Part shown: piece by piece, positions 4,568-49,901 of the stretch
Layout: every line of letters starts with the position of its first letter
Position numbering within the stretch: the stretch's first letter is position 1
From: Stramenopiles sp. TOSAG23-2
Taxonomy: Eukaryota > Sar
DNA: 64,000 nt
Assembly: GCA_900128395.1 (NCBI GenBank)
Contig: LT649243.1
Coordinates: 1-64,000, forward strand
Direction of reading: 5' to 3'
Notes under the pieces: model-generated
Database searches by the model: none
The model's input: only the letters and a program-made list of their open reading frames with translations
Told to the model about the DNA's origin: nothing
Made by a program: the position numbers and the translations under genes

Positions 4568-7500
4568 ATGATGCAAAAAGGAAATGATATGCAAAACAAA
4601 GAAGCTGATTGGGAAACTACTGGTGGTGATCCAATTCCAACAACATCATTATCAATATCAACTTCCACTAGTAGCAATATGAATAACAATAATAATAACA
4701 ACATGTTAAACACATCTATGTCAAGTATCAGAAATAACTCATCACCATTTCCTAGTGATAATAATAATAATAGTGGTACACAAAAAAAAATACGTTTAAA
4801 GTGTCACCATAATAGTAACATACGTGCTGTAGCTATTGATAAAGGGACGTCCTTTCGTAACTTAAAACAGCGATTGTCTGCCGATTATGGTTTTGAAGTC
4901 AACCTTAGATATGAAGACCCTGAAGGGGATTTAATTGTATTATCCTCACAAAATGATTTAAATGAACTTGTAGATAGTGAAGTGCGTAATTCAGTTACTG
5001 TGCATGTTAATAATACTGAAAGTAGAGGCATTTCACAAGTACTTATGTCTCCCACACCAGTTGCATCTGCTGGACATTTGCATCCATTGCCTTCATTACC
5101 AAGCCTTCACCATCAGGATAACGGTGGTAGTAATAATAATAACCATAATAATAATTTATCACATGCTATGATACGTTCCATCGGTGCCACTGGAAGTAGT
5201 GGTTTACGTCGTAGCAGTACTAGAGATCAACGCACTTATTGGCATTCAAGGCCACGACAAACGGAACCAATTCGATGGCAATGTGGGGAAATATTGGGAC
5301 AAGGTGCGTATGGTACTGTCTTTTTAGGATTGAATTTAGATACTGGTGAATTAATGGCTGTGAAACAATTGGATACAACGGAAGTGAGTGAGAAAGAACT
5401 TGCTGCGTTAGAAAATGAATTGCGAATGTTAATTGCTGGTGATCGTTCCGATAATAATACGGAAAGTGTCTTAAGCCATCCAAATATTGTTAGATATTTA
5501 GGTTTAGAACGTAGTAAAAATACGCTTAGTATTTTTTTAGAATTTGTTCCTGGTGGATCAATACGTAGTTTAATTGATAAATTTGGTGCATTGCAAGAAC
5601 CGTTGGTACGCGTATATGCACGCCAGTTGTTATTAGGATTAGAATATTTACATAGAAATAGTATAGCGCATCGTGATATTAAAGGTGCAAATGTATTAAT
5701 TACAAATGAAGGTGTAGTGAAAATTGCTGATTTTGGCGCATCAAAGCGTATCAATACGAATTCTACTAATACAGGTGGTGTAAAAGGAACTCCATTATGG
5801 ATGGCACCGGAAGTTATTAAAGAGCAACAAACGGATAAAGGTTGGAGACGAGCTGATGTTTGGAGCGTTGGCTGTACAATCATAGAAATGGCAACTGGGC
5901 GTCCACCATGGTCCCAATACAGCAACCCCGTCACTGCGATGTATCATATTGCATGTGTAGAGACTGTTCCACCATTTCCAGATTCTATATCACCACAAGG
6001 GCATGATTTTTTGCGTTTATGCTTCGAGCGTGATCCGTTAAAACGACCTGATGTGACTAGATTGCTGTTGCATCCATTTGTAACTCAATTACCTGCCACT
6101 CAAGTACGTCATTTGTCTAAATCTAGTTTTCCACAACGTCCAACGACGGGAGGTCGAAGGACTGGTCCTGGCCGTCCACGTTCCAGTCAATATTTATCTC
6201 GTCGCGATGGCCTCAGGACACCCATGGATCATGGCACGCCTCAAAACAGAGATAATATGGATAAATTTGATTTAGGGCATACCAGTCCAACAACGCAATT
6301 GTTAGAAAATGAAAAAATGCAACATAGTAGAAACAACCCTGAACTAAGTCGACCATCACCATTAACACCTGCAAGGGAAAAATTAAATAAAAAACCAGTT
6401 TTAGTTATAAATACAGAAGTAAATTTAGAAAGAGATCAACCAGAATCACCACCACATCAAAAAACTGTGGTCAATAATCCATATGCAAAAGATGCAGTAT
6501 TAGTTCCTGGGCTTCAAATTCCAAATGATGAAAGTATTAGTATGAATAATAGTGCTGGCAATTTGGATATTTCATGGTCTCCTAGTTCAAGTGTATCGTC
6601 TGGATTTGAAATGGCTCAACCACCTACTCCCAAAAACTTAGTTGAAGCAGCTATTAATGCAGCGAAAATGGGAGAAGGAATTGATTTAGCAAAACATGGC
6701 TCACCTGAACATACATTAAAGGAAGCTGAGTTAGCAACGGAGGAATTACGAAGAAAAATTCAAAAGCATAATATTAATAATAATGATGGAGAAGTTGAGG
6801 AAGACATAGAAGGGGAAGAAGATGATGATGACCGACAACAACAACAACAAATTCAAGTAAATGCAGAGGAGAAAAGTATTTTGATGGGAGATCCGGATGA
6901 ATTAATTAGGCAACAATTAGAATTGCAGCAGCACAATGCCACTGACATGGTATCTTCATTTAAAGATTTACACAGTCCTTCTTCAACGATGGTGAGTCCA
7001 AGAGCACCATCGTCTCCACGACTTCAGGTACCATTGCAACATCAACAAAAGCAAGAGATGAAGAAATTAATCAAGGCAAAAGAAAAAGTCATAACGCCGC
7101 CTAGAAAACAATCATCTAGGAAAAGTGGTAGTAATAGCTCATCGACGAAAAAGAAGAAGCGAAAAACACCACCAAAGTTACCAGAAGAAACAAATAATAA
7201 GCATGAAGGCAAACAAAATGTAAATAATCAACCAGAACAAGTTGTATATACACATGAAGCACAACCAAAAAGTACGCCTAGAAGACTAAAAACCAAATTA
7301 AGAAAGCGCCGTTCAAAATCACAATCTCCATCCGCAATACATCGTGTAGAAAGACAATCGATTAAGGAAATCGAAGAGCTAAGAAGAAATGCCCTATCAT
7401 CTTTAGGCAAGCATAAAGACGAAGAGGAAACGGTTAGTGAAAGTGGTTCGGAAAAGAAAAAACATATTTCACCAACTCAAGTAAGAGAAGTTAAGGAAAA

Positions 7501-10414
7501 AAGGTCAAATAGATTACCAAAATATTTAGAAAAAAAATTGAGTCATGCTGAGCGTAAATTGAAGAATGATCACTCGCGACGTGCACTGTCAATGGATGAT
7601 GGCATTCGATCATCGCCAGAAGAATTAGCGCAAACTGATAATTCTAAGTTGAAAAAAGTCAAAAATTCTGGTAAAGTGAGACTAGAAGCGATGAAAGATA
7701 CAAGTCATCATCATCATCACGCTAGTAATGTTGTAAGCAATAAACCGCCACATGGTAAAAGACCACCTAACCGCCATAGTAATAAGCGAGTTGCAGATAT
7801 GAACAGTGGCAAACATGATTACCAAGTAGATGGATCAAAGAAGCCACCATTGAGTCCAAGAACGAAAAAATCTGCCAATGAGTTGAAAGAAGAGCGAAAA
7901 CGTTTGGTGAAAAGCGAACCTAGGCGTCGTAGTAGAAGAAATAGTCGTGATCTTGGGCAAAAACAAATCTCTAAAAGGAATCAACGAAAACGTGCACCAA
8001 GATTGGAATTAGACAATTCCATAATAGGTGATTCCGATGAACTGGGTTCAGAATTTTTAACAGTAAGCATGAAACCTGTTCGAATGACAAGTCGCTCTGG
8101 AAGAATGAAAAGCCCGTTGGGTAACATCAAGACACAACGCAGTCGAAAAATGCCATTCAATAAAACTCCGATAAACGCAGATGCCATTAAAAGTACGAGG
8201 AAGAAAAAAAATGCAGCTTTGGTACAAATCAATACGGAAGAAATGGAACGGGAATTAGATGGTATCCATGGAAATATTCATACCAACGATGAAGATAACA
8301 TTGTTGACAGTTCTATGAGAAGTGCAAAAAGTCCTGAGCTTTGGGTTGGTGAACGGCGTAAAAAATCACAACTAGATCGCCGTGGTCTTGCTACTGCTAT
8401 ACCGAAAAGTAATCGTCAAGAATTTTCATCTCCTGCGAATAAACCGAAAACGACGAAGCATTCAAGTAGTTCTGAAAAACGACGTATGCGTTTGAATTCA
8501 CCGGAAGAGGATGGTAGTAATAATGGTAGAGGCAGCCGTAATGCTGGTAATGTACACCATTCAAATAGAGATGAGGATCATCATCAACAACATGAGAAAC
8601 GTAGACCACAAACCATGGCATTACGGTTGCGCTCGACTGGGACTCCATCAAACTCATCGAACAGGCAACACCATTCACGTGCATCGACCAGCATGGCTGG
8701 TAGTAGCAACACCAGTATTAATGGCAACGATATGCTAGGAGAACCGCTTGGTGCACTTCGTGGCATTTCCGTTCATCCAGTTCGCTCCTCTACACCATCC
8801 TTTCGAGAGAAAGATCGTCGTAGAAGACGCAAGAAAAATGACGATTTTACTGAAGATCATAATGAAGCTGTGAAAAAAATACAACGATGGATGAGACGGC
8901 GCCAGCAAATGTTAGAGCCAAGTTTATGGGGAATGCAAAGTAGCGATGATAAACGAAAACGTGGTGCTAAATTGGATTTATCCGATAGTCTTGATGATGT
9001 CGATGAAGCGATGAAGAAGCAGGAGCAGCAAATAAAACAAAAGCGAATGAACAGAAGAAGAAGACGTAGTGGTAGCGGTAGTGATAAGAATACCATAAAT
9101 GGAGCTGAGGAGAAACGTGATGTTGATATGTCTATCAACACGAAGGAAAAAAAGAACATCGTCGATAATAATGATTCGAAATTTCCATCTTATGCTAGGA
9201 ATGATGAACCATTATCCGTTAAGGTAATGTCTGGCCATCGCATGCGAGTAGTAGCTTTACATGCAGCATGTGAAAGTAACAATAGACGAAGTTATGTAAT
9301 TGCTAGTGGTTCTCGAGATGGTACGGTTCGCTTGTGGCATCCACAATCAGGGGAAGAACTAAGAGTCCTGTCTCATGAGCATGATCAACATGTAAACAAT
9401 TCATCTCCAACCCGTCGTCATTCACTTGATTCATCTAGAGGGAAACGTGATTCTTTGAGCTCTTCTGGTGGAGTACGCGTAAGCAGTCGTGGTGGCAATA
9501 CCAGCTACAATAATAATGGTAATGGTGCACCGTCTAAAATTTCATGTTTAAAAGTAAATACACAAACGCGTAATGAATTGTGTTCCGGTGCTGAAGATGG
9601 TTCGATGTGGCTATGGGATATGGAAGCAGGTCAACCGACTAGAATAATAGCAGCGCATGCTGCTGGTATTACATCGTTGATGATCGCTGATATGGATGTT
9701 ACACGTTATGTAACAGCATCATCTGATAAAACATTGAAAGTTTGGGATTTACGATCGAAACGCCCGTTAGTTCATACACTTCGTGGCAATACTGGCCCAG
9801 TAAATTTGTTAGGTATTGAAAATGAATGGGGATTGGCTTTTAGTGGATCAAACGATCAAAGCCTTCGTGTTTGGGATATTCGTACTGGTCGAATGAAACA
9901 TAATTTACAAGATCATTATGGTGCAGTGTACAGTGTTGGTTCGAATCCATCTTTGTTCGATGGCTTTGTATCTGGTGCCAGGGATGGTAGTATCAAAATT
10001 TGGAATAAACAAGCAACATGCAGGCGCACGCTTCGTGCACATCGTGGTGCTGTCACACACGTATCGATTCAACCTGTTTCCAGAATGGATGTATTTGGGA
10101 AGCATGTTAAACCACCATATATCTTGTCTGCAAGTACTGATCAAACGGCAAGATTATGGGATTCGAATAAGTTAACATGCTCGCATATATTAAAAGGGCA
10201 TAAAGGTCCAATTACAGTTGCAAAATGGGCTTCAGAACAATGTGCTATTACTGGTTCCGCAGATGGTACGATTCGGTTGTGGGATGCACGGGATGGTTCT
10301 TGCATAAAATCATTAAATGGCCAATCCAAAGATATAACTGATTTGGAATGTGATTCTGATACAATAGTTAGTACAGGGAAAGATGGTACACTTCGAATGC
10401 ATGGTGTGTTTTAA
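4568..10414 (+). CDS. MAP3K-type kinase fusion: PB1 - kinase - IQ - WD40 propeller
   Basis: A 1948-residue Ser/Thr kinase. Residues about 74-152 are a PB1 domain, with the acidic OPCA-type stretch 'YEDPEGDLIVLSSQNDLNEL'. Residues about 235-507 are a complete STE11/MEKK-like kinase: a GQGAYG glycine loop, Lys266 in AVKQL, Asp370 in HRDIKGAN, a DFG motif and GTPLWMAPE. The next 900 residues are disordered, Lys/Arg/Ser-rich and full of SP/TP sites. An IQ-like motif (EAVKKIQRWMRRRQQM) lies near 1433. Residues about 1550-1948 form WD40 repeats with repeated 'GSRDGTVRLW'-type strands, enough for one propeller. In known families PB1 domains couple MEKK2/3 or NBR1/p62-type partners, and WD40 propellers bind substrates. 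The combination suggests a kinase that carries its own scaffold. Upstream input and target are unknown. Confidence 0.92.
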   Translation: MMQKGNDMQNKEADWETTGGDPIPTTSLSISTSTSSNMNNNNNNNMLNTSMSSIRNNSSPFPSDNNNNSGTQKKIRLKCHHNSNIRAVAIDKGTSFRNLKQRLSADYGFEVNLRYEDPEGDLIVLSSQNDLNELVDSEVRNSVTVHVNNTESRGISQVLMSPTPVASAGHLHPLPSLPSLHHQDNGGSNNNNHNNNLSHAMIRSIGATGSSGLRRSSTRDQRTYWHSRPRQTEPIRWQCGEILGQGAYGTVFLGLNLDTGELMAVKQLDTTEVSEKELAALENELRMLIAGDRSDNNTESVLSHPNIVRYLGLERSKNTLSIFLEFVPGGSIRSLIDKFGALQEPLVRVYARQLLLGLEYLHRNSIAHRDIKGANVLITNEGVVKIADFGASKRINTNSTNTGGVKGTPLWMAPEVIKEQQTDKGWRRADVWSVGCTIIEMATGRPPWSQYSNPVTAMYHIACVETVPPFPDSISPQGHDFLRLCFERDPLKRPDVTRLLLHPFVTQLPATQVRHLSKSSFPQRPTTGGRRTGPGRPRSSQYLSRRDGLRTPMDHGTPQNRDNMDKFDLGHTSPTTQLLENEKMQHSRNNPELSRPSPLTPAREKLNKKPVLVINTEVNLERDQPESPPHQKTVVNNPYAKDAVLVPGLQIPNDESISMNNSAGNLDISWSPSSSVSSGFEMAQPPTPKNLVEAAINAAKMGEGIDLAKHGSPEHTLKEAELATEELRRKIQKHNINNNDGEVEEDIEGEEDDDDRQQQQQIQVNAEEKSILMGDPDELIRQQLELQQHNATDMVSSFKDLHSPSSTMVSPRAPSSPRLQVPLQHQQKQEMKKLIKAKEKVITPPRKQSSRKSGSNSSSTKKKKRKTPPKLPEETNNKHEGKQNVNNQPEQVVYTHEAQPKSTPRRLKTKLRKRRSKSQSPSAIHRVERQSIKEIEELRRNALSSLGKHKDEEETVSESGSEKKKHISPTQVREVKEKRSNRLPKYLEKKLSHAERKLKNDHSRRALSMDDGIRSSPEELAQTDNSKLKKVKNSGKVRLEAMKDTSHHHHHASNVVSNKPPHGKRPPNRHSNKRVADMNSGKHDYQVDGSKKPPLSPRTKKSANELKEERKRLVKSEPRRRSRRNSRDLGQKQISKRNQRKRAPRLELDNSIIGDSDELGSEFLTVSMKPVRMTSRSGRMKSPLGNIKTQRSRKMPFNKTPINADAIKSTRKKKNAALVQINTEEMERELDGIHGNIHTNDEDNIVDSSMRSAKSPELWVGERRKKSQLDRRGLATAIPKSNRQEFSSPANKPKTTKHSSSSEKRRMRLNSPEEDGSNNGRGSRNAGNVHHSNRDEDHHQQHEKRRPQTMALRLRSTGTPSNSSNRQHHSRASTSMAGSSNTSINGNDMLGEPLGALRGISVHPVRSSTPSFREKDRRRRRKKNDDFTEDHNEAVKKIQRWMRRRQQMLEPSLWGMQSSDDKRKRGAKLDLSDSLDDVDEAMKKQEQQIKQKRMNRRRRRSGSGSDKNTINGAEEKRDVDMSINTKEKKNIVDNNDSKFPSYARNDEPLSVKVMSGHRMRVVALHAACESNNRRSYVIASGSRDGTVRLWHPQSGEELRVLSHEHDQHVNNSSPTRRHSLDSSRGKRDSLSSSGGVRVSSRGGNTSYNNNGNGAPSKISCLKVNTQTRNELCSGAEDGSMWLWDMEAGQPTRIIAAHAAGITSLMIADMDVTRYVTASSDKTLKVWDLRSKRPLVHTLRGNTGPVNLLGIENEWGLAFSGSNDQSLRVWDIRTGRMKHNLQDHYGAVYSVGSNPSLFDGFVSGARDGSIKIWNKQATCRRTLRAHRGAVTHVSIQPVSRMDVFGKHVKPPYILSASTDQTARLWDSNKLTCSHILKGHKGPITVAKWASEQCAITGSADGTIRLWDARDGSCIKSLNGQSKDITDLECDSDTIVSTGKDGTLRMHGVF

Positions 10415-22754: not shown

Positions 22755-25320
22755 TTATAACTTTGCATTAATAATTTGATTCTTATCATTGTTATCCGCG
22801 TCAAAATCTATTTGTTGATTTACACGCAACAAAAACTTAAGATCATTTATTTCATCAGTTGTTAAACCTACTTCCTCTGATAAATAAGTTTCTACATTTC
22901 CATATCTCTTCAAAAATTTTACTATTGTTGCTTCCATGATCTCAGGCACAGACAAAAACAATGACTTAATAGTTTCTATTTTGAAATCATTTACTTTTGC
23001 ACGTCCTTCTGGCGGAGCATGGCGTTTGAACTCTTCAATAAATTCTTCATCTGTATCCCATTGTGTAACACGTAAGCTGGTAAATTCATTGGATTCGCCA
23101 TAATCATCGATAATTTCAAAATCTTTGCTACCAGCTATCATACCAAATAACATAGCAATGAAACCAGTTCGGTCTTTCCCAGTTGCACAATGATAAACAA
23201 TTGGCCATTTACTTTCATCTAGGACGTACTCTTTAAAAAATCGTTTTATATATTTGCTGCCGATTCGTAACATTTCCATGTAAACGTAAGATTGTCCATC
23301 AATAGGACCCATGTTATCAACAGATGGCATAAATAAATTTGGCATTAAAGACTCAGGCGTCAAGCCATCCATTACTGGGATCAATACTTTTTCAACATGA
23401 TCAGGCAGATGTTCAGGGCGTTCAACATCATCATTTGCTGAACGTAGATCAATAATTGTTTTAACTTTATACTTATTCACTAAAGTTTCAATCCCTTTTT
23501 TCGTAGCCCAGTTGACACTCTCGCTGCGAAATATAATACCAGGTCGAAAATTACTTAAGTTTTTTGCCATGTCTCTAAAATTATGTAAACCATCAATTTC
23601 TTCTCGATTGAAATTCCGGACAGATAAGATTTGTCTTAATTGTCCAACTTCTGTGGTTGTAAAGCCAAGAAGATCGATTAAATAATTATCAACTGTCTTA
23701 AATGTCTCTTTGAACAATCGTATTGTTGCAGCCATCGATTCACGATTTGCCAAAAAAGAATATCGTATAGTAGATACACTAAAAGATTTCATTCCACTCT
23801 TTGATCCTGCCGGTGCATGCTTTGTTACCCTAGCCATGATGTCTTCGTCAGACATAGTTGGTGGAAACTCTTTTTCTGTAAATGCTTTTGATTCATGAAA
23901 ATCAGCAACAATATCTTCCTCATATGAGTTTGTTAATAACCCCGCTAACATAGATATAATACCAGTTCTGTCTTTTCCAGTTGCCTGTGAGCGTATCGTA
24001 TCAATGAGTGATGATGTGTTAGAAAGGATGTTGTCCTTTTTATTTTTAGTTTTATAGGCGAATATAGAATTTACTTACACAATGGAAAACAATAGGTAAA
24101 TTTTCAGGTTTTAAAATCACTTTGAAAAAATCACGTATTGCCTCTTTTCCTACCTTTAAAATATGCAGATACATTCTACCAGTACCTTCATATTCACCAT
24201 ATTGTTCTACTAACGGTAAAAAATTATTAGGCATTTTTGTTTCTGGAGTTTTTTGATCAAGCATTGGCATTACCATACGTTTCACAGCTGATGATGGAAG
24301 TGGATCTCTAGGATCTGTCTCTGCTCTTAAATCAATAACAGTTTTAATATTATATTCTTCAATCAATTGTTGCTTTCCTAAATCACTTGCCCAATCAAAA
24401 TTTTCACTTCGATATAATAAATCAGGTTTAATGTTTGAAAAATAAAATGATAAGTCGCGAAAATTTTCTAATCCATCTATCCTATGAATTCGCCTATTAG
24501 GTCTGATACATAAGATATGGCGTAATTGCTGTACTTCCATTCCGGTTAAACCAACATGGTTGATTAAATAATTATCAATGTTACCATATTCTTCTCGAAA
24601 AAGTCGAATCGTTTCTGCCATAATTTCATAGGTTGCTTCAAATGAACTTTTAATTACAGGCATAAGTTCTAATGGTGGTTTTCTACCAGCTGGTGCATGT
24701 TTGAAAAATTCTTTTTGAAACTCTTCCAATGTCATATCTACAGGAAAGTCTTTTTCCATATATTTTTGTGTTTCAAAATAATCATTACATATTTCTTCAT
24801 CGCGAGCACTTGTCAATAACCCAAATATCATTGCAACCATACCGGTTCTGTCCTTTCCTGTGGCGCAGTGAAATGCCAATGGAAACATTGTTCTAACACT
24901 ATTATCAAGGATTGCTTTGAAGAAAGTCTTCATTCCATTTATACCTTGTTTACATAGCCATATATACATTTTCCCTTGACCTAACGTAGGCCCAAAATCT
25001 CGAAGAAATGCTGGAAAATTTGTATTCATTTGGGATGCAGGAGTTAACTCATCCATGATTATAGCCATTATTTTTCGCACTCCTGTAGGTGCATCGTACA
25101 TTTCATCACTCAAAGCACGTAAATCTACTATCGTGCGCATGTTGTAATTTTCAACAAACTCCTTTCTTCCTTTGTCACTTGCAAATAGATAATTTTCACT
25201 CCTATACATTAATCCAGGCTTAATGTTCGAAAAGAACAAGCTTAAATCCCTGAAATTATACATACCATCTGGTTGTACTGGGGTATTATTATTATTATTA
25301 GTTGGGAGGGTCGTCGTCAT
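22755..25320 (-). CDS. Triple-domain tyrosine phosphatase-like protein, complement(join(22755..23984,24079..25320))
   Basis: Two exons joined in phase 0 across a 94-bp intron (GTAAGT at 24078-24073, CAG ending at 23985) encode 823 residues. Three tandem domains of the Y_phosphatase3 (Siw14/LipA-like, PF13350) type begin at about residues 20, 285 and 548 with 'NFRDL.....IKPGLMYRSE'-type motifs and 'TIVDLRA'. Each has an intact P-loop HCATGKDRTG, with the nucleophilic Cys at about 152, 414 and 680. The intron sits exactly after Cys414, so splicing is needed to complete the second active site. This restores the motif and strongly supports the join. The substrate may be phosphotyrosine, phosphoinositide or inositol pyrophosphate. 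The sequence does not decide which. Confidence 0.9.
23985..24078 (-). other. Intron inside the second phosphatase active site
   Basis: A 94-bp intron with a GTAAGT donor and CTCACAG acceptor (minus strand). It interrupts the P-loop between His-Cys and Ala-Thr-Gly-Lys-Asp-Arg. It is one of only two introns supported in the window. Confidence 0.88.
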
Positions 25321-41906: not shown

Positions 41907-44900
41907 TTAGAATGTGTATATCACCATCCCTCCTTCCACTTGTTGATACCCGTTTGATCCATCTAGTTTATATTGTATTATAGCATTTAATTGTGATTTC
42001 ATATTATCACTAAGTTGATTATTATATAGGTACAATGTCCTTAATGTATTGTTTGTTTTTAATCCATCAATAATACTTTGTATTCCACCATCATCAGTAA
42101 TATTATTATTATCTAGGTCCAATCTCGTTAATGTATTGTTTGATTTTAACAATTCACCAATAGCTAATGCATCCTCATCCATGAGTTTCTTTCCACTCAA
42201 ATCCAAATTTGTTTTCCCATCAAATTCTTTTTCCCATTTAATATATGCAGCACTTTTGTTTATGTCTACTGCGTTGGTGTTATCATCTTCTTGGTCATTT
42301 GTATCATTTAACTCAACATTAATATCTTCTAAAACATTAAATAGTGATTGCTTCGGTTGACCTAACTTTTGCTCTATGTTTTCTGGGATATTATTTACAT
42401 TAATAAAAGCTTGTTTTACCTTCTTGACTTTGGCGGGTGCTTTCGCTTCCATTGGCTTCTCTACGTTTGAAGGCATTTTATCATCTACTATCGTCTCTTC
42501 ACTAGGTTTGCTTTGCACTTTGAGCTGCTTTGTGGATGTATTGTTGGTATCTAAATTCTTACGATCATTCTTCTTATTTTCAATTTTCGTCATCAATTTA
42601 CTTTGCTTATCATACACTACTTTATTACTTTTTTTTGAATCTTCCATTTGGCTTTTATCCAGTTCTGTATCTGTCCATATACTATGATAAAGTCCATATT
42701 GTACAGGCTTATCAACTATACCAACAAATAATTTTGCTCGTGTAATAGCACGATATACAGATGCTTTTTTCTTATCTAGTATCGACTCTTCGTCATCATC
42801 TTTTATTGTTTCATCAAAACCAACAACAATTGCAGCATCGTATTCTAAACCATCTTGATTTGAAATAGTATCAACAACTATTTGTACTGATTTATGTCTT
42901 AATTGTGGAAATGTACCAAACATTGTTTCTGCATTGAAAAATTCAAAATCCATTTCAAGACCTTTCTCGTCAATTTTATCTCGCAATTTCATCGTAAACT
43001 CATCTACGGTTAATGAGGGATTATCATCTGGTAATATGATCACAACACGACCACGGCTTAATAGGAACCATCCAAGATCTTTCTCGTCTTTCATTGCAAA
43101 AACAGGTTTAACATGCTCTAAAGCATTAATAGTTCTCATAATATATTGTGTTATTGTATCATTATTATTATCATCATCCTTGTTGGAATCGACAATTAAA
43201 AATGGTTCAATGGGACTTCCAAATTCCTTATTTTTACATGATGGTGTTTCTACATATTTTCTATATAAATGAGAGAACAAGGTAATTGCCTGTGTTGAAC
43301 GTACAACATCACGAAGTTCAATATTGTAAACTTCTGCTTGGCGTTTGTGTATTCTTTTATCACGATTCATTGCCTCGTTTATTCTATCATTAATATCTTC
43401 ATTTGCATTGGCACCTTGATTATTGTCTGAAAGCACTACACGATGAGTCGCTTTCTTAAAATATTCATATATATTTTCCCATATATGCATATCATCATTT
43501 TCATGAATAATATGATGCGCTTCATCAATTACGGCTAAATCATAATTTTGAACTGTCTCATCCTTATCAATTTCAACAAATTTCAAATACGCATTACCTT
43601 GCTCATTTAGTTGAAGTATAGCTTTGTGTGGCTTTTCATTAGTCTTTCTTGTACAAAAATGGATACGATTTAAAATCGATTCTGGATCATGCCGTACTGC
43701 GTCATTATTATTATCATTCTCTTCTCCCTTGGTCTCGTCATCACCACGTTTAACTTTCCTACTTAACATACGTATTAATATCCATCTTGCAAAAAAATAA
43801 GCAAATCCATTTTGTGTGCATGCAAAAAGTATGTTTGCATTTGGATTTTCTATTAACATTTTACATATAAAATATAAACCTAAAAATGTTTTACCCGTAC
43901 CAGCAAATCCTTTTATGTGAACACATCCAATGTTATGTTTTTCGTTTGCATTGTATTTCTCGTATTCATTGTATTTCTCTTCTTGTTCAATGGTTAATTC
44001 ATCTTGTGCTAATAATTTGTTTTTGCAAATTTCCTGAAGCATACTTAGCATTTTAAATGATACGTTTTCAACTGATATGTTCTCAACCAATACTTCTTTC
44101 AATTTCATTTCTTGTTTAATGCGATCTATCTCCTTTCCATCATTTTTGTTTAAAGCAGCAACAACTTTTGCAAAGTTTTCTGGTTTTTCAATAAAGTTGA
44201 AAAACAATTTTAAAAAAGGTGTATGATTATTTGATGCTTGCAGAAGGAGCAATTCTTTTATATGTTCAGTGTATATTTTTTTAATTTTAACATCGTTTTC
44301 TTTAAAAATGGGATCTCCACCTTGACCATCTTCCGATAAATTAAATATTGGATCAGAAACGTTGATATTCTTAAATTCTGTCGTTATATTTTTTACCTTC
44401 AATGCTACAGCAGTTTTTCCACATTCAAAAGCATCTTTGGGCAATTTACCGCCTTTAAAAAGCTCATAATAAAAATCTTCGCTTATAATAGGGGCAGCAC
44501 CAGAACAAACTTTTTTCTCAAAACCGTATGAATATAAGCCACCTTTTTCAATAAAATGTTGCACAACATTACTATCGTCACTGGCTGTTTCACACGCACT
44601 CATCGTAAATAATGTAACACCATGTTGAATTAATGTTTCGATAAACTTATCATATTCAATTCGCTCTATAGTATATGGTTTGGTTGTTATATCAAGAAAG
44701 AAAAGGCCTAAAATTTTATTTAGGATTTCAGCGTTTCCATGACCAATAAAGTGACAATATTGATATTTTTTTGATCGTATTTGTTTGTAGAACTTAAGCA
44801 CAGAACCTTTAAATATATCTGCACCTGTAATTTTTTGAATTTCCTCTGCTTCCTTTTTACTTTCTTCAAAATCAACAGCTAAATAAATTATACCTTTTGC

Positions 44901-46277
44901 ATTGCGATACAAAGTTGTTAGAATATGATTACCATGCTGATTTTGCTCTAACATTTCTATTTTTTCAAGTATTTCTTTAAATTTTAGATTCATAAAATTA
45001 TTAAGTTTTGAATCTTTCGATTTAACATAGTTGATGAACATCTTTAATCTTAATACCGCGTTTGTTACACGTTCAGATATTTTTGTTTGTTCCTTAGAAT
45101 TTTTCTTTAGACTTGCATCCATACAGTCCACATACTGTTGTATCCCTTTTGTATCTTTCGTAATTTTAATTTGCTTTTGCAATAATTCTTGGATACAAGC
45201 AAATATCAGTGCATCTTTAGCATTAGTATCGACAAGTAATCGTTTTCCTTCTTTTACATCGCCCTTTTCATCATATAGAGAGTAATTTTTTTCATCCACT
45301 TTGTCTTTATAACATATAGTTCCATCATCTTCTTCATCATTACTTTTTACCAATGTTATTTCAGATCCATCTTCCAATCTCACTAATTGAATCTTTTCGT
45401 TCTCTGGTAAATCCGGGTGTTGAAATATTTTCCATAATTCTTCTGCTATAAAACCAGCAGTCAAAATACCTGAATTTTTCCATTTGTAAATATATAGTCT
45501 TAAACGATCAAGTTTATATAATATAGATTTTTTTTCTAATTCACCCTTTATTATTTTAAATGCGGAATGGGATAGTACAGTTAATTGATCAGTAATTACT
45601 GTAATAAATTTCGCATGATTTGCATGGACAAAATTTGCTTCAATTTTGTGTTTTGATGAATTATTAGTTACTTCATTATTATTATCATCGTAAAGAGGTT
45701 GGACTATATTCGGTGGCCTTGCTCTACCATTTTGTAAACCTACTTGTAAATTACTATTTTCTAACAATTTATTTCGTACATCTTTACGTTTCCCATCTGC
45801 TTGTCTTTTGGGAATATACACTCGTTTTGTATATATTACAGAAAAAACTAACAGACTAGGGTCAATACGTTGTTGGTGGGAAAGTTGCTGTTTGTTATTA
45901 TTATTGTTGTTATCATTATCGCTACTTGCTGTTAAAGGTTTGACGATTGTAAAATCAACTTTTTTTGTATTGCCAGCATTATCTTTGCACATAATAAAAT
46001 GTGGCTCGAACATTCTTTTTTGACTTGAATTATGAGGTATTTTATTACCTTTTTTGGGATCAAGTGGATCTCCCTCCAATGTAATCCCATCTTTACTCCA
46101 GAAGTATTCTTTATTTCCAAGAGGATTCAACAAATGAACCTCATGTTGAAGCGCTAAAACTTGAAATGCACGACGATTTTTATCAATTAAATATGAGGTA
46201 TATGGTACATCTTCTTTCCCCTTTTTAACTCGTATTTTAATTTGGTGGTTTCCTTGTTGATTTGTTCTAGTTGCCAT
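41907..46277 (-). CDS. CHAT protease - SF1 helicase/NTPase - LRR protein
   Basis: A 1456-residue multidomain protein. Residues 1-440 are of unknown fold. Residues about 440-640 match a CHAT caspase-like protease: 'CHFIGHGNAEILN' with His513, and 'LFTMSACETASDD' with Cys562, the expected His/Cys dyad. Residues about 785-1195 form a superfamily-1 helicase/DUF2075-type NTPase: Walker A GFAGTGKT (Lys796), Walker B 'VIDEAHH' (Asp918-Glu919), a motif-III-like 'VVLSDNNQ', 'NQDGLEYDAAIVVG' (motif V) and 'YRAITRAK' (motif VI). After a Lys-rich linker, residues about 1350-1440 carry RI-type leucine-rich repeats ('LTRLDLDNNNITDDGGIQS'). Protease plus NTPase plus LRR recalls immune NLR logic, but with a helicase in place of NACHT/NB-ARC. 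An innate-immune or quality-control role is inference. Confidence 0.88.
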   Translation of the reverse strand: MATRTNQQGNHQIKIRVKKGKEDVPYTSYLIDKNRRAFQVLALQHEVHLLNPLGNKEYFWSKDGITLEGDPLDPKKGNKIPHNSSQKRMFEPHFIMCKDNAGNTKKVDFTIVKPLTASSDNDNNNNNNKQQLSHQQRIDPSLLVFSVIYTKRVYIPKRQADGKRKDVRNKLLENSNLQVGLQNGRARPPNIVQPLYDDNNNEVTNNSSKHKIEANFVHANHAKFITVITDQLTVLSHSAFKIIKGELEKKSILYKLDRLRLYIYKWKNSGILTAGFIAEELWKIFQHPDLPENEKIQLVRLEDGSEITLVKSNDEEDDGTICYKDKVDEKNYSLYDEKGDVKEGKRLLVDTNAKDALIFACIQELLQKQIKITKDTKGIQQYVDCMDASLKKNSKEQTKISERVTNAVLRLKMFINYVKSKDSKLNNFMNLKFKEILEKIEMLEQNQHGNHILTTLYRNAKGIIYLAVDFEESKKEAEEIQKITGADIFKGSVLKFYKQIRSKKYQYCHFIGHGNAEILNKILGLFFLDITTKPYTIERIEYDKFIETLIQHGVTLFTMSACETASDDSNVVQHFIEKGGLYSYGFEKKVCSGAAPIISEDFYYELFKGGKLPKDAFECGKTAVALKVKNITTEFKNINVSDPIFNLSEDGQGGDPIFKENDVKIKKIYTEHIKELLLLQASNNHTPFLKLFFNFIEKPENFAKVVAALNKNDGKEIDRIKQEMKLKEVLVENISVENVSFKMLSMLQEICKNKLLAQDELTIEQEEKYNEYEKYNANEKHNIGCVHIKGFAGTGKTFLGLYFICKMLIENPNANILFACTQNGFAYFFARWILIRMLSRKVKRGDDETKGEENDNNNDAVRHDPESILNRIHFCTRKTNEKPHKAILQLNEQGNAYLKFVEIDKDETVQNYDLAVIDEAHHIIHENDDMHIWENIYEYFKKATHRVVLSDNNQGANANEDINDRINEAMNRDKRIHKRQAEVYNIELRDVVRSTQAITLFSHLYRKYVETPSCKNKEFGSPIEPFLIVDSNKDDDNNNDTITQYIMRTINALEHVKPVFAMKDEKDLGWFLLSRGRVVIILPDDNPSLTVDEFTMKLRDKIDEKGLEMDFEFFNAETMFGTFPQLRHKSVQIVVDTISNQDGLEYDAAIVVGFDETIKDDDEESILDKKKASVYRAITRAKLFVGIVDKPVQYGLYHSIWTDTELDKSQMEDSKKSNKVVYDKQSKLMTKIENKKNDRKNLDTNNTSTKQLKVQSKPSEETIVDDKMPSNVEKPMEAKAPAKVKKVKQAFINVNNIPENIEQKLGQPKQSLFNVLEDINVELNDTNDQEDDNTNAVDINKSAAYIKWEKEFDGKTNLDLSGKKLMDEDALAIGELLKSNNTLTRLDLDNNNITDDGGIQSIIDGLKTNNTLRTLYLYNNQLSDNMKSQLNAIIQYKLDGSNGYQQVEGGMVIYTF

Positions 46278-47435: not shown

Positions 47436-49901
47436 ATGAACAAAACAATAACCAAAAGCAAAAACAATAACCAAAAGCAAAATGATGTGAATCGTGCATC
47501 AGCTCCATATAGACTACGTGAAGATGTTGATATAGTGGCACAATCCAGGAAATTCTGGGGAAAATTCTTATGTGATAAGTATGAACTCGTTCGGTTTGTA
47601 ACAATTGGTGCAATTGCAAAATCAAAATTACAAACCGTACTTGGTGGTAGTTTCCAATGCGAGGGCGTTGAGTCAAAAAAATTTGATATCAATGTATCAA
47701 AAAAAGGGTACTCCCCTCAAAAAAAAAAGCACGAACAAAAGGCTGTTATGCCAGAGCTTTCGTGCAAACGTTGGGGCGCAGATGTACTCCAAGAAGTGGA
47801 AAAATATATAAAAGAAAATGCAGGAGCTGAAAAAGCTAAAGCGGAAGCAGAAAAAGCTAAAGCGGATAAGAAAAAAGAAGCAGACGAATCAAATGCAAAG
47901 AAAGCTTCACGGGAGGTGTATGATGAAAAAATGACAGAGTATAGGTGGAATCGCAAGAGTTTAAGAATTTTCGTGAATGTATTTAAAAATTTAGGTAGAG
48001 AAAAATCTTCAAAGTCCATACGCAAGCGTATCAGACATACATTCATTTCGCTGATGGAAGCATCAGGTTTAGATGAACTATTTACACATTATTTTGAAGA
48101 GATTACACCTGTAAAGTCAAAAGAAAAGAAGGTGCTAAAGTCTTTTCAAAAAAAGAAGGTGATAAAGATGGTAAAAAAAGAAATAAATATATATATAAAG
48201 CAAATTACCCTTCAAAAATTGTTCCCAAAAAAGGCACTTTGGGTCAATATGCAAAAGCAAGTAGTAACTACTACAACACATGCCCACTTGCAAACAGCAT
48301 TGTACGGGCCAGTATCTGCTGGTTTTCGTGTATTACGTCTTCGCGGTGGCATGCAAATCTTCGTCAAAACGTTAAATGGGACAACCATTACGGTTGATGT
48401 AGACCCATCTGATACGGTGGAAGCCTTAAAAGCTGCCATCCAAGATAGGCAAGGTGTACCGCCAAATAAACAACGTTTGATTTTTGGAGGTAAACAATTA
48501 GACAATGATCGCCCATTGTCTTATTACAACGTCCAGAAAGAATCGACGTTGCATTTAGTATTACGTCTTCGAGGTGGTGTGAAAAGATGTTGTGTCTGCA
48601 CTGATACCTTTGATGACGAAAGCATCATTGTAGAATGTAGTAACGGGCACGCATTTTGTGGCGGTTGTCGAAGCCAATGGTGGGGAGTAACGGGGATACT
48701 CAATCCTCACGATGAAATTGACATAACTTCGATGTCTACAAAATGTTTACATCACAGCTGCAACAGTGGGCGTATTGCCTTAGTCGCTGATATAGAAGCG
48801 ACTGTAAAGCACACGGATGGGCAAGCCATTGCTAAAGTTCTTCGTCATTTGTATGAAACGTTTGTTAACGCAAGTGAAGCTTCTTCAGGCAAGCTAGACG
48901 ACGACAACAATGCCGCCTATGACACAATTCTATTAGCCTTGGATCATTTCAAGTGCCCAAATCCGAAATGTGACATGAGGCATGAATCAAATCCAGCGGC
49001 GTGTCGTGCAGAGGAATGTCTGAAATGCAAATGTAAGTTTTGCCATTTATGCGGTCACATTCAGCGAGAAGGAGAAGACATTCACAGGCATGTGCTATTG
49101 TGTTCTGATGGTGACATGCGTATTTCAGCTCAACACCCTAAATTCAAATTGAAACGTAGGAAGTGGGCTTTGGTAGAAATATATAATGACCTGCTTGGTT
49201 TCACACCCAGTGCTAGGGTGCATGCAGTTCGCAGGTTTCTAAACGATGACACGTTGTGGGTTTCACCGCCATGGAATTTAATGGATGTTGGTAAAGATAC
49301 ATACATTAAAATGTGTCGTGATGGCAAGTATAAGATGCATAATTTACAAACGTTTCAACGGGGGCCATTGGCGGAAACATCGATGCTGAATTCACTTGTA
49401 CAATCCTGCTCAAAGACAGTCGTTGAAGAAGTAGGCAAAGAATCCATTAAAAAAATGGCGACAGAGACTGTCAGAAAGACAGTGCAAGAAAACGTTTTAA
49501 AGTACGTGAAACGTCATGGCATTAGCAAATTGTTCCACAGTTCCCGAAAGGCAATTTGGGTCAATGTGCAAAAACACTTTGTAACCAGTACAACAAATGC
49601 TGGCTTGCAAGCAGGATTGCATGGGTTAGCTTCCGCTGGGGTTGGTGTAATTTTAGAAATCCCCAGAGGCATATACCAGTCTTATGATGACCACAAACGG
49701 CTGGCAAATGGTGAAATAGATGAGGAGAAACTTCAGGAGCTAAAGAGCATTAACTTTAAAGAAAGTGTAACCAATGTTGTTGGAACCAGTGTGGTAGCTG
49801 CTGCGGCCGTCACTTGTGGGGCTGGTGCTGTTGGCTTTTTTGTGGCCAACTTCACATATGGCGCAGTTTCCTCAATCTATTATGGTACACGTCGCCGTTA
49901 A
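47436..49901 (+). CDS. Internal-ubiquitin RING/RBR-like protein
   Basis: An 821-residue protein. Residues 306-381 are a complete ubiquitin ([10 protein letters not shown]... to LRLRGG). It is directly preceded by another LRLRGG (residues about 300-305), so both ends look like deubiquitinase cleavage sites. Right after it, residues about 385-560 hold zinc clusters: a RING-like 'CCVCTDTF' and '[11 protein letters not shown]', then an IBR/RING2-like 'CPNPKC' and '[14 protein letters not shown]', with an extra Cys ('NPAAC') where RBR ligases have the catalytic Cys. Residues about 262-300 and 698-737 are a duplicated module ('LWVNMQKQ'/'IWVNVQKH'). The C-terminus has a Gly/Ala-rich hydrophobic stretch that may be membrane-active. 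An E3 ligase that supplies its own ubiquitin is the best guess. Function is unproven. Confidence 0.88.
48351..48578 (+). other. Divergent in-frame ubiquitin unit
   Basis: Seventy-six codons that align end to end with ubiquitin. Lys6, Lys27, Lys48 and Lys63 are kept, as are the Leu8/Ile44/Val70 hydrophobic patch and Gly75-Gly76. Lys11 is Thr, Lys29 is Ala and Lys33 is Arg, while a new Lys appears at position 40. About twenty positions differ from the almost invariant eukaryotic sequence, so this is not an ordinary polyubiquitin unit. Confidence 0.93.

Follow-up and report, generated by a model that had tools for sequence, protein, structure and literature searches.

A candidate NLR-like, non-STAND receptor in a stramenopile that combines Peptidase_S74, CHAT, an SF1 helicase-type NTPase and leucine-rich repeats

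The stretch of DNA considered here, which we call the window, comprises positions 1 to 64,000 of contig LT649243.1 in the assembly of Stramenopiles sp. TOSAG23-2 (GCA_900128395.1). On its reverse strand, at 41907..46277, a single ATG-started open reading frame of 1,456 codons encodes, in order, a variable N-terminal region, a Peptidase_S74 (S74) module, a probable coiled coil, a CHAT protease domain, a linker, a superfamily 1 (SF1) helicase-type NTPase, a further linker and leucine-rich repeats (LRRs). The preliminary description of this DNA, made from the sequence alone, had placed the pair His513 and Cys562, SF1 motifs and an LRR tail in one open frame, and each motif does lie at the residue that it gave. 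Pfam scores ResIII and Peptidase_S74 above their cut-offs in the window protein, and CHAT and LRR under theirs. No NACHT, NB-ARC or nSTAND domain exceeds cut-off, SF1 motifs being present instead, and a simple STAND NLR was rejected because neither NACHT nor NB-ARC reached the score required. With an N-terminal effector and C-terminal repeats arranged around an NTPase, the protein nevertheless has the plan of an NLR, and from the sequence we infer that the gene encodes a receptor of NLR-like plan that would lie outside the STAND class.

Residues 1-200 (45678..46277, reverse strand, as for all features of this gene) carry no domain recognized by Pfam. Compared in 50-column alignment blocks to about residue 178, they are 16-35% identical to the corresponding parts of two relatives that share the order S74-CHAT-SF1-LRR, namely the gene on contig C727 of the same genome (1,449 residues) and the NCBI protein P0001 (1,411 residues). 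Hidden Markov models (HMMs) of the N-terminal regions of two further relatives, C236 and C689, and of C727 with P0001 each match their own genes only.

The S74 module (intramolecular chaperone, ICA) occupies about residues 201-372 (45162..45677), as indicated by Pfam PF13884 and by alignments with relatives. It scores 24.3 bits against a cut-off of 22 in the protein comparison and 28.7 bits in the genome search. The assignment is made much firmer by C236, in which S74 precedes a TIR domain, because this relative is itself above the S74 cut-off (22.7 bits) and matches the window S74 part with an E value of 4.9e-16 and 38% identity (query residues 238-400). The motif SHSAFK, residues 236-241 (45555..45572), has Ser236 and Lys241 five residues apart (i, i+5), like the dyad of S74 and MYRF, and both residues are invariant in the six aligned proteins (window, P0001, C727, C40, C236 and C689). 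In MYRF and endosialidase, as described in the accessible parts of the papers cited, S74 forms a trimer and cleaves itself through a Ser-Lys pair (PMC8326128, PMC3742443, PMC3828593). The catalytic dyad is S911/K916 in endosialidase and S587/K592 in MYRF; self-cleavage requires the trimer and is lost when either dyad residue is mutated (PMC8326128). Our analysis suggests that the window S74 module is likely to cleave itself, and the N-terminal region is predicted to be released if it does. The helical region that follows, about residues 352-451 (44925..45224), may form a trimeric coiled coil; its profile matches to coiled-coil chains are weak and non-significant (E values of 0.028 and up, and of 0.5 and up), and it is a helix in a low-confidence model. 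Additional S74 proteins with tail-fibre-like repeats were observed on C225 (L039) and C497 (L041, L042), the two near-identical S74 copies on C497 being about 10 kb apart.

Here S74 separates a distinct N-terminal region from the remainder of the protein, as it does in MYRF, and the N-terminal regions differ among subfamilies. Both observations would suit a MYRF-like switch, in which self-cleavage frees a trimeric N-terminal fragment to act elsewhere, for example in the nucleus, while CHAT-SF1-LRR has a regulating role. Against this, Pfam detected no NDT80 or MYRF-type DNA-binding domain in the window, P0001, C727, C236, C40 or C689, and we regard such a switch as quite unlikely.

The CHAT (caspase/separase-type) protease domain extends over about residues 455-660 (44298..44915), its limits being taken from profile comparisons with relatives. 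The CHAT alignment identifies His513 of HFIGHG (44739..44741) and Cys562 of SACET (44592..44594) as the putative catalytic residues. This His (HG) and Cys (AC) pair is found in five of six CHAT regions (window, P0001, C727, C79 and C169) and is lost in the sixth, that of C40, where Arg and Ala replace it. Among the relatives, PF12770 scores 48.2 bits in C169 and, in C79, 22.1 bits as a protein and 25.6 bits in the genome search. An HMM built on the CHAT regions of the window, P0001 and C727 matches the CHAT domain of C79 with an E value of 2.7e-21, leaving C169 and C40 unmatched at E <= 10. The alignment of window and C727 profiles by hhalign gives E values of 2e-19 over 167 columns for C79, 1.8e-4 for C40 and 0.01 (probability 4) for C169; C40 is in turn joined to C79 by BLASTP (E value of 5e-23, 30%). 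A profile of five regions (window, C727, C40, C79 and C169) matches PDB entry 8tl0, a 'CHAT domain-containing protein', with an E value of 1.6e-8, and HFIGHG and the AC motif fall in register in this match. The trimmed profile of the window and C727 matched no CHAT chain in the PDB; the first, untrimmed CHAT and S74 profiles carried long unrelated ends and were uninformative there. The dyad-less CHAT of C40 (L040 448-3165 (+), with L064) is perhaps a non-enzymatic partner.

The NTPase, about residues 771-1205 (42663..43967), was delineated by Pfam and by its motifs: GFAGTGKT (Walker A, 790-797), DEAH (918-921), LSDNNQ (949-954), a segment at 1135-1147 and a segment at 1175-1182 that includes ITRAK, which we take to be SF1 motifs I, II, III, V and VI, respectively. 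A superfamily 2 (SF2; RIG-I-type) helicase was rejected since motif VI reads ITRAK and QxxGRxxR, the motif VI of SF2, was not seen. The label 'Schlafen-like' in the preliminary description is supported by SLFN-g3_helicase, which exceeds its Pfam cut-off in the window (27.8 bits against 24) and in C727 in the genome-wide search. No convincing sequence match was obtained between the window SF1 part and helicases in the PDB.

Intact SF1 motifs, the SLFN-g3_helicase score and the high conservation of the SF1 core, which ranks with the best-conserved stretches of the gene (the block that begins at 782 shows 92-98%), would also suit a nucleic-acid sensor. The SF1 domain would then sense foreign DNA or RNA by a Schlafen- or RIG-I-like logic, the LRRs would tune or localize the protein and CHAT would be the effector. 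Helicase cores do serve antiviral defence in Schlafens and in RIG-I-like receptors. Diversification is strongest, however, on the concave face of the LRRs, and the LRR tail is also carried by genes in which SF1 was not detected; a sensor of this kind appears unlikely to us.

The LRR tail, about residues 1356-1456 (41910..42212), ends in ...DGSNGYQQVEG..., an ending common to many genes. When used to search the genome it gave at least 75 matches, those with LRRs falling on 23 contigs among the matches listed. We collected 93 distinct repeat units of 42 nucleotides from 38 overlapping loci; the loci were selected by protein similarity to the window, the repeat pattern was fixed on framework amino acids and the statistics were pooled over pairs. 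The proportions of synonymous (pS) and nonsynonymous (pN) differences are 0.067 and 0.019 for framework codons and 0.243 and 0.520 for the five codons of the concave face, which are codons 1, 2, 4, 6 and 7 of the repeat. Mean base entropies at codon positions 1, 2 and 3 are 1.62, 1.43 and 0.69 bits on the concave face and 0.08, 0.07 and 0.17 bits in the framework. At each concave site a single codon per amino acid dominates, accounting for 76/87, 85/89, 87/90, 85/92 and 90/93 cases at the five sites, where the codon use of the genome would predict 55, 52, 63, 62 and 75, and the third base that is preferred varies from site to site. Eight of the ten pairs of concave sites show no linkage beyond that of shuffled data, the linked pairs being codons 1-2 (1/500) and 2-6 (15/500), and 91 of the 93 five-codon combinations are distinct. 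The loci L008-L036 and others share the appearance of a portable tail with hypervariable concave codons and a near-frozen framework, and two near-identical LRR genes lie together on the 12.3-kb contig C618 (L009/L010).

Concerted evolution with diversifying selection, as reported for the repeats of fungal NLRs (PMC4986451) and, in part, for brown-algal LRR-ROCO genes (PMC11378527), suffices by our analysis to produce this pattern. Targeted mutagenesis was rejected as a required cause because the fungal repeats have a comparable pattern that concerted evolution and selection account for (PMC4986451). A dedicated mutator behind the LRR diversity is possible.

Relatives in the same genome allow the modules to be compared one by one. 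C236 encodes S74-TIR, SF1 and LRR parts in that order (TIR_2 32.7 bits, ResIII 53.3 bits); this copy is spread over four separate frames with internal repeats and is probably interrupted or misassembled, and its P-loop gives weak NB-ARC and NACHT matches under cut-off. In C40 the genome search reveals one open frame of 1,934 residues with the order S74-CHAT-NACHT (NPHP3_N)-WD40, scoring 24.4 bits for S74 and 50.2 bits for NPHP3_N/NACHT. CHAT-NB-ARC-ankyrin is found in C79 (2,138 residues) and SPRY-SAM-CHAT-NB-ARC in C169, while C689 carries the S74 part alone, close to a contig end. At the thresholds used, the genome search returned 14 TIR_2, seven S74, four NB-ARC and three CHAT matches. Comparison of the window, C236, C40 and C79 places SF1 in the slot of NACHT or NB-ARC, and CHAT in that of TIR: C236 differs from the window by an exchange of effector, TIR for CHAT, on one SF1-LRR chassis, whereas C40 and C79 have NACHT-WD40 or NB-ARC-ankyrin in place of SF1-LRR behind their CHAT regions.

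Several other genes were noted by eye. C457 and C82 combine TIR and a kinase with the same LRR tail. Helical N-terminal regions resembling four-helix-bundle cell-death domains precede this tail in C243 (L035 2868-4703 (-)) and precede NACHT-WD40 in C23 (L065).

The tail also stands behind a formin-like proline-rich region and F-box-like regions (by eye), and so is not bound to defence effectors. This would agree with an ordinary multidomain protein that has no part in recognition, acting for instance in quality control or the cytoskeleton, with the tail as a mobile module of low specificity. A recognition repertoire fits better with TIR, CHAT, NACHT and NB-ARC as partners and with variation placed on ligand-facing codons, and we consider the ordinary protein improbable.

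Sequence identity among the window, C727 and P0001, measured in blocks of 50 alignment columns, is mosaic. P0001 has 76-98% identity to C727 over about residues 209-650, as against 20-74% to the window. The relation is reversed in the blocks that begin at 1031 and 1131, where identity to the window reaches 94 and 98% and identity to C727 is 44 and 86%. Such a mosaic fits what would be expected of recombining receptor genes. Between the window and C727 the ratios of nonsynonymous to synonymous divergence (dN/dS; Nei-Gojobori method, NG86) are 0.73 for the N-terminal region, 0.49 for S74, 0.35 for CHAT and 0.40 for SF1, the last two values indicating purifying selection on both domains. The LRR stretch of this pair has a pS of 0.03, measured over 41 sites, and a pN of 0.20.

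We also considered whether LRR repeats had been misjoined to a CHAT-SF1 gene, or whether the gene is a decaying pseudogene. Several LRR arrays do lie at contig ends (C553, C679, C760 and C774, among others) and the C236 copy is interrupted. The host contig, which is eukaryotic and 74.8 kb long, continues on either side of this gene into unrelated genes, however; the identical join recurs in C727 and P0001, and dN/dS lies below 0.5 in CHAT and SF1. We regard an artefact as highly improbable.

Our preferred reading, to which we assign a probability of roughly 0.55, is that the gene encodes an intracellular, NLR-like, non-STAND receptor in which S74 forms a self-cleaved trimer, the LRRs sense a ligand, SF1 acts as the switch and CHAT is the effector, and which belongs to a repertoire of exchangeable modules. 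The S74 module would fold as a homotrimer, like those of phage tailspikes and MYRF, and would cut at Ser236, so that the N-terminal part is released and S74-CHAT-SF1-LRR remains as a trimer. The concave face of the LRRs would bind a variable ligand of probable non-self or altered-self origin, and binding would shift the nucleotide state of SF1, which stands where NACHT or NB-ARC would be. The three CHAT domains held by the collar would then be activated and cut a downstream substrate, giving a defence or cell-death response. Across the repertoire the effectors (CHAT, TIR), the NTPases (SF1, NACHT, NB-ARC) and the repeats (LRR, WD40, ankyrin) would be exchanged. We base the trimer and cleavage step on the biochemistry of S74 in other proteins, and the other steps on domain logic and the exchanges described above. 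The best reading of the family as a whole would be a combinatorial repertoire for non-self recognition, similar in plan to the CHAT-NLRs of fungi.

The preliminary description had proposed a possible NLR-like switch with a protease as effector, an NTPase in place of NACHT/NB-ARC and LRRs as the sensor. This proposal is supported in part, by the TIR, NACHT-WD40 and NB-ARC-ankyrin exchanges in the same genome. That description overlooked S74 with its likely self-cleavage, the occurrence of the tail as a module common to many genes and the hypervariability of its concave face.

A number of results weigh against the receptor reading. On the window alone CHAT PF12770 reaches 13.8 bits, under the cut-off of 24. 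The residue after the S74 serine, 237, is His in the window and Asp in the other five of the six aligned proteins, and profiles of the S74 region, also after trimming, picked up neither S74 nor MYRF chains from the PDB. AlphaFold models aligned with P0001 only are unusable, with a mean predicted local distance difference test score (pLDDT) of 31 for residues 1-690 and 35 for residues 690-1240; a fold search with the latter model gave 487 matches at E <= 10, headed by the P-loops of RadA and FtsY, and none at E <= 0.001. Gasdermin (PF04598) was unmatched in the genome profile search, so that the best-known substrate of fungal CHAT was not found. The concave pS of 0.24 exceeds that of the framework, which implies that LRR diversification includes silent change. 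The assembly, finally, is divided into 793 contigs.

A more far-reaching proposal, which we put forward tentatively as possible though doubtful, is that this protist lineage has a repertoire of its own. Here S74 would pre-assemble CHAT or TIR as self-cleaved trimers and SF1 would replace the STAND switch. The shared LRR tail would be diversified codon by codon, with a single codon for each amino acid at a given site, sites that vary almost independently and a frozen framework; this is a pattern comparable to that of fungal HET repeats or of the variable lymphocyte receptors of lampreys, and conceivably one with a dedicated mechanism.

The preliminary description knew of no eukaryotic protein with this order of domains. 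A protein search with window residues 440-1200 returned P0001 as its single match among 7,524 candidates, so that P0001 alone shares the order there, with C727 added from the genome. An alignment-based protein search found no relative and carries little weight, since it missed P0001 as well. The S74 part of C236, used as a protein query, matched none of 2,596 candidates, proteins over about 1,400 residues being outside the length range, and tblastn of viral and prokaryotic contigs found no relative. PADLOC and NCBIfam left the window, P0001 and the S74-TIR frame of C236 unmatched; weak matches under threshold were given by the helicase piece of C236 in both and by C727 in NCBIfam. In the open-licence literature, outside which most subscription journals and bioRxiv lie, we found neither a description of an S74-CHAT-SF1-LRR protein nor papers that pair S74 with NACHT or with NLRs. 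The claim of novelty holds to this extent; it does not extend to CHAT as the effector of a eukaryotic NLR-like receptor, which is already known. According to the accessible parts of two papers, CHAT occurs in dozens of NLRs or NLR-like proteins of fungi (PMC10197012), and such proteins are also described in PMC12881547. Within the open-licence literature, the new features are an SF1 core in the position of the NTPase, an S74 module in a receptor of this kind and the attachment of LRRs to this type of chassis.

If our reading is correct, the NLR logic of effector, NTPase and variable repeats has been recreated around a helicase motor in place of the STAND NTPase, a self-cleaving trimer of phage-tailspike type serves as a receptor scaffold, and MYRF-type autoproteolysis would be linked to immune-type signalling. 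The cleavage and trimerization of a receptor by S74, the use of an SF1 core as a signalling switch and the concerted diversification of LRR contact residues in a protist become approachable questions.

The genes neighbouring the candidate receptor gene include those for a tuberin-like RapGAP, an Ost-alpha transporter, CDC37 and a ubiquitin-containing protein, together with RCC1 genes. Elsewhere in the window, the frame at 47436-49901 (+), of 821 residues, has a central ubiquitin domain (Pfam 99 bits) bounded by LRLRGG motifs and, by eye, a cysteine-rich RING/RBR-like stretch after it. Another receptor-like plan is seen at 4568-10414 (+), where a protein kinase of 1,948 residues has C-terminal WD40 repeats. 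Two adjacent Y_phosphatase3 genes lie at 22755-23951 and 24052-25320 (-), the second also with a match to a dual-specificity (DSP)-type phosphatase.

Comparison with known systems places the window protein between several of them. With MYRF/MrfA and the S74 of phage tailspikes (ICA, CIMCD) it shares a Ser-Lys dyad at +5 and a coiled coil that may follow, but in the window family, unlike in those proteins, S74 is followed by a protease (or TIR) and then by an NTPase and repeats. NLRP1/CARD8 and PIDD1 are likewise receptors in which LRRs or death domains are combined with a self-cleaving module, although their autoproteolysis is that of FIIND/UPA, which is unrelated to S74. The SF1 domain resembles the helicases of Schlafen group 3 and of DUF2075 type in that SLFN-g3_helicase is above cut-off; unlike in Schlafens, general Pfam scans of the window and its relatives gave no match to the Schlafen core domain.

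For the remaining systems we rely on the portions of the cited reports that were accessible. The candidate immune receptors of the LRR-ROCO type in brown algae also have protist LRRs that are shuffled and, in their case, under positive selection at concave sites, but they use a ROC-COR GTPase and one exon per LRR and are without CHAT, S74 and SF1 (PMC11378527). In bacterial conflict systems with diversity-generating retroelements, CHAT and TIR effectors are likewise combined with diversified sensors; these sensors are of lectin type and are diversified by a reverse transcriptase, a mechanism for which no search was made here (PMC10907252). In the fungal NLRs the NTPase is NACHT or NB-ARC, with no mention of S74 in those portions, and the repeats are WD, ANK and TPR, the account in PMC4986451 stating that 'no LRR motifs were found'. 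The fungal repeats themselves have a conserved framework, positively selected concave sites and concerted evolution, a pattern that the window LRRs resemble. Like the window protein, those fungal NLRs and NLR-like proteins whose effector is a CHAT (or S8) protease have it on the N-terminal side, then an NTPase and then repeats, and their effector, NOD and repeat domains are exchanged combinatorially, as in the window family (PMC10197012, PMC12881547, PMC4986451).

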